In this document: piece after piece, positions 27,705 through 64,000 of the stretch
How the letters are laid out: each line of letters opens with the position of its first letter
Position numbering within the stretch: the first letter of the stretch is position 1
Assembly: GCA_018715595.1 (NCBI GenBank)
Contig: DVLI01000006.1
Location: forward strand, 22,085 to 86,084
Reading direction: 5' to 3'
Source of the DNA: Candidatus Caccoplasma merdavium
GTDB taxonomy: Bacteria; Bacteroidota; Bacteroidia; Bacteroidales; UBA11471
DNA length: 64,000 nucleotides
The notes under the pieces: model-generated
What the model saw: only the letters and a program-made list of their open reading frames with translations
Database searches by the model: none
Told to the model about the DNA's origin: nothing
Position numbers and translations under genes: made by a program

Positions 27705-29654
27705 TTAGTTGTGAATGACCACTCCGCCGTTGGTGGGAATGGTGACCGACATCTGTTGCCTTTTCCCTATTCGGGCGGTGCGCACCCGCCCTTCGAGCCG
27801 GCTGTTGTCGTCATAGACGGTGACCGTCTCGCCGGCCTCGAACAGGGACAGGTCGAGGGTGAGGCGCACCGTCTCTTTCTGGGCATTCACCCCCACGACA
27901 TACCAGGTGTCGCCGTGGCGGCGCGCCAGGAGTATGTATTTTCCCGGGTAGCCGTCGAGGAAGCGGGTGTCGTCCCAGGTCGTGGGCACCCCCTTCATGA
28001 AGTCGATGGCCCAGGCCGGGGCGTCGGTGAGGTTGTTGGGTGCCAGGGCAAAATGCTGTACGGGGCTCTGGAACAGTATGGCCGTGGCCAGTGCGAAGAC
28101 CTCGGAGGTGACCCGCCGGCTGCCGCCCGGACGGTTCCCGGCGTTGTAGTAGCGGTTGAGCGTGCTGCCGCCGAAATCCATGCTTCCCACCGTGTTGCGC
28201 AGGAAGGGGTGGAGGCAGGCGTTGAAGGCTTCGGCGTCGCAACTGCTTTGCGTGAAGTTCATGTTCTCGCTGGCCAGTACCGCCTCGCTGGCGGCATAGT
28301 TGGGATACATGCGTTCCCAGCCGCGGGGCAGGGTGCAGCCGTGGAAGATGACCAGCAGGCCGTAGTCGTTGGCGTCGGCCAGAATCTCCTCGTAGAGTTG
28401 CAGGGCGGCCTGCTTGTCGCTCCCGAAGAAGTCGACCTTGATGCCCTTGATGCCGGTCTGTTGCAGCCATTTCATCTCCCGGCGGCGTCTGATGAGGTTG
28501 TGCATCTTGCCGCGCGGCCCCTGCGGGGCATCGTTCCAGTAGCCGTTGGAGTTGTACCACAGGTAGAGACCCACCCCCTTGGTGCGGGCGTAGGCGGCCA
28601 GCTCCTCGATACCCTCGTAGCCGATGCGGGTGTCCCACCAGGCATCGACGAGTACCGTGCGGTAGCCCATCTCGGCACAGAAGTCGATGTAGCGTTTCTG
28701 TTCGGCGTAGTTCATGCTGCCGTCGCCGGCGATAATCCAGCTCCATGTGCCGCAGCCATACTCGTCGGCATACTCTTTCGAGGGCTCATAGAGCGGCTCG
28801 ACGAGGTCGAAGGCCACCGTCGTCTCGACCACCGGCGCGAGGGTGCGTCCCACGGTGAGGGTGCGCCACGGCGTTTGTCCCGGCAGGGTGATGCCCGGTG
28901 AGGACGAGCCGTTGCCGTTGAACTCCTTCTCTTGCGGGAAACCGATGGTATAGAGCCCGTCGGCATGTCCCAGGAGCCGGCCGGCGCAGTAGCGGCTGTC
29001 GACGCCCGTCTCCGAAATCAGCACCCACCCCCGGTCGGCGATGCGGAAGAGACCGGGAAAGGTGTACCCTTCGCCCAGTCCGTTCTTGCCCGGTGTGTCG
29101 TCGGGGGTGTAGGGGGTCTCGTAGCTCGGGGTCGTGCGGGCGAATCCGCCCATGGCCGGGCTTTGCGGGCAGAGGAACGTCGTGCTTCCGGCGGGGAGCC
29201 TGAACCCCGTGGCCTCCTGCCGCACCACGCTGCACAGCGTTTCGCCGGTGCGGCAGAGGGTGTAGCGGAACGCCACATCGTTGTTGCCCACGCTGAACGT
29301 TACCACGAAGGCTCTCTTGCCGTTCTGTTCAAACGGTATGTCGACCGTGTGGGCGAGGTGGCGTACTTGGCTTTTCTTGATGTTTTTGAGGCTGTAAGTC
29401 TCGTCGATGACCTGCACTCCGGTCGCTTTGCCCAGCCGCAGGTCCCGGGTGAAGTCGCCCGCGTCGGTTATGAAGCCGAGGGGAGAGGGGTCGAGGAAGG
29501 TGATACCGTCGTATAATATGCGGTAGGAGGCATGGCCGCCGCTGTCGGAGACGATGACCGTGAGCCGTCGGTCGGGGCTCGACAGGCTCAGTTCCCCGGC
29601 ACACAGGAGGGAGGCGCAACATATTGCCAGCAGCATCAATGTCAGTTTTTTCAT
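27705..29654 (-). CDS. GH97 glycosidase, retaining (alpha-galactosidase-like) group
   Basis: A 649-residue exported enzyme with signal peptide MKKLTLMLLAICCASLLCAG. It has the GH97 N-terminal beta-supersandwich (about 24-290), a barrel and a C-terminal sheet. In the barrel, GIKVDFFGSDKQ places Asp408 as nucleophile, as in retaining GH97 enzymes (alpha-galactosidase type), rather than the Glu bases of inverting SusB glucosidases. The motif GCTLPRGWERMYPNYAASEAV is also typical. The substrate could be alpha-galactoside or beta-L-arabinopyranoside. It is flanked on the same strand by two GH43 genes. Confidence 0.87.
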   Translation of the reverse strand: MKKLTLMLLAICCASLLCAGELSLSSPDRRLTVIVSDSGGHASYRILYDGITFLDPSPLGFITDAGDFTRDLRLGKATGVQVIDETYSLKNIKKSQVRHLAHTVDIPFEQNGKRAFVVTFSVGNNDVAFRYTLCRTGETLCSVVRQEATGFRLPAGSTTFLCPQSPAMGGFARTTPSYETPYTPDDTPGKNGLGEGYTFPGLFRIADRGWVLISETGVDSRYCAGRLLGHADGLYTIGFPQEKEFNGNGSSSPGITLPGQTPWRTLTVGRTLAPVVETTVAFDLVEPLYEPSKEYADEYGCGTWSWIIAGDGSMNYAEQKRYIDFCAEMGYRTVLVDAWWDTRIGYEGIEELAAYARTKGVGLYLWYNSNGYWNDAPQGPRGKMHNLIRRRREMKWLQQTGIKGIKVDFFGSDKQAALQLYEEILADANDYGLLVIFHGCTLPRGWERMYPNYAASEAVLASENMNFTQSSCDAEAFNACLHPFLRNTVGSMDFGGSTLNRYYNAGNRPGGSRRVTSEVFALATAILFQSPVQHFALAPNNLTDAPAWAIDFMKGVPTTWDDTRFLDGYPGKYILLARRHGDTWYVVGVNAQKETVRLTLDLSLFEAGETVTVYDDNSRLEGRVRTARIGKRQQMSVTIPTNGGVVIHN

Positions 29655-63098: not shown

Positions 63099-63130
63099 AA
63101 AAAAAATCCCGGAAGGCGCACCTCCCGGGA
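63099..63130 (-). terminator. Terminator of the Spy-like gene
   Basis: On the minus strand, TCCCGGGAGG and CCTTCCGGGA pair with one mismatch around TGCG, followed by eight T. Confidence 0.7.
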
Positions 63131-63167
63131 AAAAACACAAAGTTATCTGAGAATCTATTTTATGCGG

Positions 63168-63806
63168 CTATTTCTCTTTGGGGGTTGAGGGGTGAGGCTG
63201 CCCGGCTTGGTCTTTGTTGTTGGGCCAGTGGTTGCGCATCATCTCTTGGGAGAAGCGGGCCTCGGAGTCAAATATTTTCACGATTTTCTGCGCCGGAAGT
63301 ATTTGCAGGAATTTCTCGAAATACTCTTTTTGCAACAGGGCTTCCTGCATTTCGGCTTCAATCTTTTTCTCTACGGCGGCCCGGTATTCGGTCTCGGAGA
63401 CAGGCTCTTTCGAACGCATCAGCCGTTTGATGGCCCGGGAGGCATCGTCTTGCACGCGGAACATTTTGGTTTGCAATTCTTCATATATGGGGAAGAATTC
63501 AGCGGCCTCTTTGTCCGACAGCTCGGCTCTTTCGCGGAGGTAATCACGTTTGTGGGCCTTGAAGATTTCGAGGCGGTAACGACCTACTTCGCGGCTGGCG
63601 GCCCGCATGGCTTTGAGCGAAGTGCCCTCTTGGGGCGATTTCAGCGACTTGCGGTAGTCTTTTTTGGCCTGGTCGTATTTCTGTTGGGCTTTTTCGAGTA
63701 AGGCTTCGGCTTCGGAGAGTGTAAGCACTTTTTCCTGGGCTTCCGCCACGGGGGCGAATGCCGTCAGAAAGAGCAACACTACAATCGAAAAAATGAAGTT
63801 TCGCAT
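63168..63806 (-). CDS. Spy/CpxP-like periplasmic helical protein
   Basis: A 212-residue exported protein with signal peptide MRNFIFSIVVLLFLTAFAPV. The rest is highly helical and charged, with LSDKEAAEFFPIYEELQTKM, a segment like the LTxxQ region of Spy/CpxP-type proteins often placed beside sigma-factor genes in Bacteroidetes. The C-terminus is Pro/Lys-rich. The start is at 63806, the signal peptide start. The open frame runs on through the adapter at 63869-63887, where it would read RSEERRAS, so any longer start is an artefact. Confidence 0.7.
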   Translation of the reverse strand: MRNFIFSIVVLLFLTAFAPVAEAQEKVLTLSEAEALLEKAQQKYDQAKKDYRKSLKSPQEGTSLKAMRAASREVGRYRLEIFKAHKRDYLRERAELSDKEAAEFFPIYEELQTKMFRVQDDASRAIKRLMRSKEPVSETEYRAAVEKKIEAEMQEALLQKEYFEKFLQILPAQKIVKIFDSEARFSQEMMRNHWPNNKDQAGQPHPSTPKEK

Positions 63807-63868
63807 ATACACAAGATTAATATTCATAAGCGTCGGCAAAATACTCATACACGCTGTAATCATCGACG

Positions 63869-63887
63869 CACGACGCTCTTCCGATCT
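63869..63887 (+). other. Illumina TruSeq adapter sequence (artefact)
   Basis: CACGACGCTCTTCCGATCT is an exact 19-base match to the 3' end of the Illumina TruSeq universal/read-1 adapter (…ACACTCTTTCCCTACACGACGCTCTTCCGATCT). It marks the join between the Bacteroidales chromosome and the foreign tail. No natural function is inferred. Confidence 0.95.
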
Positions 63888-63889
63888 TA

Positions 63890-64000
63890 GAGAATGGAGA
63901 TATAGTAACCTTAGAAGATATGACAGGAAGAACGCTTCAATATGCAGTATATGATAGATTTGTAGTAAAGCCTGATGATACAAGCTGTACAAGCCAACAT
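63890..64000 (+). CDS. Fragment of a Gram-positive-type sortase (foreign, chimeric tail)
   Basis: Thirty-seven in-frame codons after the adapter read ENGDIVTLEDMTGRTLQ then YAVYDRFVVKPDDTSCTSQ, H at the end. The GDIV..ED..G..L.Y.VYD..VV.P.DTSCTSQ pattern resembles the strand pair just before the catalytic TLITC motif of Firmicutes sortases. The tail is about 35 percent GC against a GC-rich window, and codon use differs. It is cut at both ends: by the adapter at 63887 and by the window end. It does not belong to this chromosome. Confidence 0.45.

Follow-up and report, generated by a model that had tools for sequence, protein, structure and literature searches.

We consider it highly probable that the last 132 bases of contig C6 in the Candidatus Caccoplasma merdavium assembly (genome G000) are a library artefact, in which 19 nt of sequencing adapter join what is likely a Bacteroidales chromosome to a 113-nt scrap of a Clostridia sortase gene, the joining having likely proceeded by annealing at the word CACGACGC. 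Contig C6 is 86,084 nt long, and the window, that is, the whole stretch of 64,000 nt analyzed here, corresponds to C6:22085-86084, so that the window closes where the contig itself physically ends. The initial annotation had described this end as a chimera joined through an adapter. That description is supported, and both the source of the tail and the probable true neighbor on the genomic side have been located. We confirm that the contig end is a sequencing artefact without a biological reading.

An Exact Adapter Word near the Contig End

Bases 63869-63887 on the plus strand read CACGACGCTCTTCCGATCT and are identical at 19 of 19 nt to the 3′ end of the TruSeq read-1, or P5-side, adapter. An exact copy of the 19 terminal adapter bases had been claimed at precisely these coordinates, and the claim holds. 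The base before it, 63868, is a G that already mismatches the adapter, so the adapter remnant is truncated to 19 nt. We calculate that chance alone would produce an exact 19-mer about 5e-7 times per 64 kb when both strands are counted. A search of the 64-kb window with a 15-nt adapter core, allowing up to 3 mismatches, returned one place, which is the exact site; because shuffled sequences gave a mean of 2.05 places under the same threshold, it is the exactness alone that is informative. In the whole genome (26 contigs, 2,390,084 nt), there is a single copy of the 19-mer at up to 3 mismatches, and the reversed-pattern control gives none. When a 13-nt core was allowed up to 1 mismatch, the genome yielded the junction site and one single-mismatch site in contig C8. 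We reject the C8 site as a second adapter remnant, given that the reversed control also returns 1 and the site is therefore at chance level. Furthermore, an adapter word of at least 10 nt is absent from the last 150 nt of 50 of the 52 contig ends, the exceptions being the right ends of C6 and C23.

The Tail Is a Fragment of a Clostridia Sortase Gene

A match to Clostridia sequence starts at 63887/63888, directly after the ...GATCT that ends the adapter, which is the insert position expected for Illumina TruSeq adapter contamination. The foreign tail (63888..64000, plus strand) comprises 113 nt at 35.4% GC and contains 37 open codons in the plus-strand frame from 63890, whose translation is ENGDIVTLEDMTGRTLQYAVYDRFVVKPDDTSCTSQH. 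The tail thus codes on the plus strand and the preceding gene on the minus strand, in agreement with the opposite-strand coding proposed in the initial annotation. The 36-aa piece is similar to the sortase family PF04203 (E 4.7e-4, 20.3 bits, which falls short of the curated cut-off of 26.6), and two NCBIfam sortase models also match it, both far under their cut-offs. A search of solved structures with the tail gave seven weak matches, of which the best is a sortase (E 0.37) and the other six are arginine hydroxylases (E 0.44-0.54).

Closer relatives of the tail were found by scanning genome contigs with two 8-residue patterns, which returned 101 stretches, 3 of them encoding a relative. Two of these, L162 and L163 from uncultured Clostridia metagenome-assembled genomes (MAGs), have 100% protein identity to the tail piece, and the third, L164 from an uncultured Clostridium sp. 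MAG, has 78%. At the DNA level, the identities are 112/113, 104/113, and 86/113, respectively. The bases of L162 that are equivalent to the tail lie inside a gene for a 250-aa sortase, the full protein of which matches PF04203 with an E value of 1.2e-28 and 99.8 bits, and the L162 sequence continues on both sides of them. Identity to L162 reaches just one base to the left of 63888. Consistent with this, when bases 63700-64000 were compared with the L162 and L163 genomes, only query positions 188-301 matched, that is, the tail plus one base, and the same 301 nt searched in G000 found only themselves. The adapter 19-mer is present in neither of these two Clostridia MAG genomes (0/2). Base 63892 of the tail differs from all three relatives, which may reflect divergence between strains or a mistake introduced at end repair. 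Two other sources were considered for the tail and rejected: a phage origin, for which the seven matching phage records, with E values of 1 to 4 and at most 25% coverage, are not meaningful, and a plasmid origin, for which there was no match among plasmids.

The composition of the tail adds little to this identification. The initial annotation gave the tail about 35 percent GC, which is accurate at 35.4%, but the change that it saw at the adapter is a weak local step, given that the 113 nt before the adapter are nearly equally AT-rich at 38.1% GC; taken alone the step proves little, and we do not accept it as proof of a chimera. Among 113-nt stretches before the junction, 1.4% are as AT-rich as the tail. 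At the opposite end of the contig (C6:1-113), the outer 113 nt have 19.5% GC, compared with 47.7% in the next 287 nt.

The Genomic Side of the Junction and Its True Neighbor

The last intact gene before the artefact is a genuine one, located on the minus strand at 63168..63806, and encodes 212 aa from an ATG at 63806; its nearest relatives in the database are 219 aa long. It has 24 database relatives, the best of which is 99% identical. A source name is given for one of them, a protein from a Porphyromonadaceae MAG that is 55% identical, and this is consistent with the assignment to Bacteroidales made in the initial annotation. When bases 63100-63868 were searched in 60 genomes, G000 included, six matched, namely G000 itself and five of its six same-genus relatives; there was no match in G004, which belongs to the same genus, or in any of the 53 genomes of other genera.

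In same-genus relatives, the 212-aa gene adjoins the gene that is cut in C6. This next gene has 119 codons in G006 and G001 and ends in SCVxDYxxYEYxADAYxY. The 119-aa G006 protein has no Pfam match, and the gene that precedes it in G006 encodes an ECF-type sigma factor according to Pfam. What C6 retains is the C-terminal piece, at 63817..63868 on the minus strand, equivalent to approximately residues 102-119 of the G006 protein; an alignment of G006 residues 95-119 to the C6 end runs by chance through the adapter and into 7 tail bases. Residues 1-97 of the same protein match C23:29038-29331, and contig C23 ends at 29332. C23 also carries the sigma factor gene, with 94% protein identity to that of G006. 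Because the 119-codon gene is split in this way, with its C-terminal piece on C6 and residues 1-97 at the C23 end, comparison of the sequences makes it very likely that C6 and C23 are neighbors and that the adapter chimera sits in the gap between them. This gap, between the C6 break and the C23 end, would measure approximately 8 nt when both are compared with G006.

The two sides of the junction come from different organisms, C23 and the same-genus relatives on the left and L162-L164 on the right, and each side has its natural continuation there. Had the tail been real DNA of the G000 genome transferred from a Clostridia bacterium, it would be contiguous with its surroundings, as it indeed is in the contig. 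However, an exact adapter marks the boundary, the tail comes from the middle of a gene, and what C6 lacks of the cut gene lies at the C23 end; we accord such a transfer next to no probability.

The C23 end has an adapter-like feature of its own. The 10-nt adapter word GAAGAGCGTC is found at C23:29299-29308, starting 34 nt from the C23 end, near the end of L175. Among 9116 60-mers sampled from the window, 38 contain a 10-nt adapter word, and the occurrence on C23 is probably due to chance. A gap made by adapter trimming was rejected by reasoning, as C23 extends 24 nt past the adapter-like word.

Adapter Remnants Elsewhere Face the Other Way

Within the order, 9 of 393 genomes contain the adapter 19-mer, G000 included, and the reversed-pattern control has 0 in its rows. 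In the eight other genomes, 102 places were counted and 29 were read as loci; in all 29 of those read, the adapter takes the outermost position, with own DNA of the contig on its insert side. In two of these genomes, G017 and G341, the 19-mer occurs 39 and 44 times; 6 and 5 of the occurrences were read as loci, all at contig ends, and the two genomes look like heavily untrimmed assemblies. A similar picture emerges from IMG/VR, where the sides were judged from the locus ends with a 300-nt classification cut: among the matches listed, own DNA is on the insert side in 124 of 126 places on 120 loci, and the exceptions among them are L123, which falls just beyond the 300-nt cut, and L131, which faces outward. 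At L131:14347-14365, an outward junction consists of a T run followed by the complete 58-nt P5 adapter and then 116 nt of other DNA; the T run together with the adapter resembles the surface-bound flow-cell oligonucleotide.

The site at the C6 end is thus like residual Illumina adapter at contig ends in that the same adapter 3′ word lies near the end of a contig. At nearly all of the other places read, however, the adapter is outermost and is followed by own DNA, whereas here it faces outward with foreign DNA beyond it. Therefore, the site represents a junction and not an untrimmed read start. In the titles and abstract openings covered, we found no description of outward-facing adapter junctions in assembled genomes, and we do not claim that such junctions are unpublished.

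A Shared Word and the Origin of the Join

The first bases of the adapter remnant, 63869..63876 on the plus strand, are common to the adapter and probably also to the genome, and would represent microhomology at the switch point; judged by the relatives, at least 5 of these 8 bases are likely genomic. In particular, G006, G001, G003, and G005 retain TCGTG on the minus strand, G002 lacks it, and G004 has no match. The minus strand of C6 reads GCGTCGTG at the junction, and the first three bases of this word could derive from either partner. In 200,000 random breaks, at least 5 nt were shared in 0.5% and at least 8 nt in 0.02%.

These observations bear on how the two molecules came together. We prefer annealing followed by extension, whether in library PCR or in end repair, to ligation, because the adapter is truncated where the genome and the adapter share 5-8 nt, although this preference is based on one junction. 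In this view, one strand, with the shared word CACGACGC at its end, would have annealed across to the other partner and been extended, giving a chimeric library molecule. The join would then be a physical one, made by a template switch or mis-annealing in end repair or library PCR, and could have proceeded in either strand direction. In formalin-fixed samples, mis-annealing at microhomology during end repair is described by MicroSEC as a source of chimeric reads (PMC8674242). As described there, those reads resemble the present join in that unrelated strands are joined at a short common word in library preparation, but they involve two strands of the sample in formalin-fixed tumor DNA, whereas one partner of the present junction is the adapter (PMC8674242).

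Alternatively, a genome fragment may have been joined by blunt or TA ligation to an adapter-bearing Clostridia fragment, with the shared bases arising by chance. An adapter followed directly by an insert is indeed the normal ligated structure, and the outward junction of L131, with its complete 58-nt adapter, is what ligation or carry-over of a whole oligonucleotide would give. Here, in contrast, just 19 nt of adapter are left and the cut falls at a 5-8 nt shared word, a coincidence as rare as the random breaks above indicate, and we regard ligation as unlikely, if still the leading competitor to annealing.

Because both sides of the break carry adapter-like words, GAAGAGCGTC on C23 and GCGTCGTG at the C6 junction, it could be proposed that adapter-like genomic words are predictable weak spots of short-read assemblies and that chimeric ends recur at them in unrelated assemblies. 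We consider this generalization very doubtful.

The behavior of the assembler is also relevant. G000 has 52 contig ends, and a comparison of the outer 400 nt of each revealed ends that overlap exactly, end to end, by 131, 124 (four pairs), 105, 84, 65, 20, and 16 nt and yet had been left unmerged. Exactly 131 terminal bases are shared by five end pairs (both ends of C1, C3/C18, C4/C7, C5/C24, and C19/C20), which resembles the branch points of a word graph and points to 131 as the word length of the assembler. The chimeric part of C6, at 132 nt, is one longer than this shared end word, and the position of the chimeric end may have been set by the assembler. The overlap word at the junction would also have allowed an assembler or gap closer to merge two contigs in silico on approximately 8 nt, but a merge on so short a word is out of character for an assembly that kept apart ends with exact overlaps of 131, 124, 105, 84, and 65 nt, and we judge it improbable. 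A physical join by annealing would have survived into the contig if no genomic reads bridged the gap of approximately 8 nt between C6 and C23, leaving one or more chimeric reads as the sole way onward for the assembler.

Consequences for the Genome Record

The initial annotation proposed to trim the 113-base tail; this falls short, as both adapter and tail, 132 nt at 63869-64000, must go. As the record stands, the 212-aa gene has a false N-terminal extension, an open frame on the minus strand (63807..63998) that runs through the adapter into the tail. The resulting minus-strand open reading frame, 63168-63998, has 276 codons and is open at its 5′ end, with 274 codons from the first TTG, and gene callers may take from it chimeric residues or a chimeric protein. 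Trimming 63869-64000 removes both the false sortase fragment and the false N-terminal extension, and C6 and C23 can be treated as likely adjacent. The site also provides a simple rule, namely that an outward-facing adapter with foreign DNA beyond it marks a junction chimera, as opposed to mere untrimmed adapter. Apart from this rule and the likely adjacency of C6 and C23, the removal of the chimera is routine assembly clean-up.
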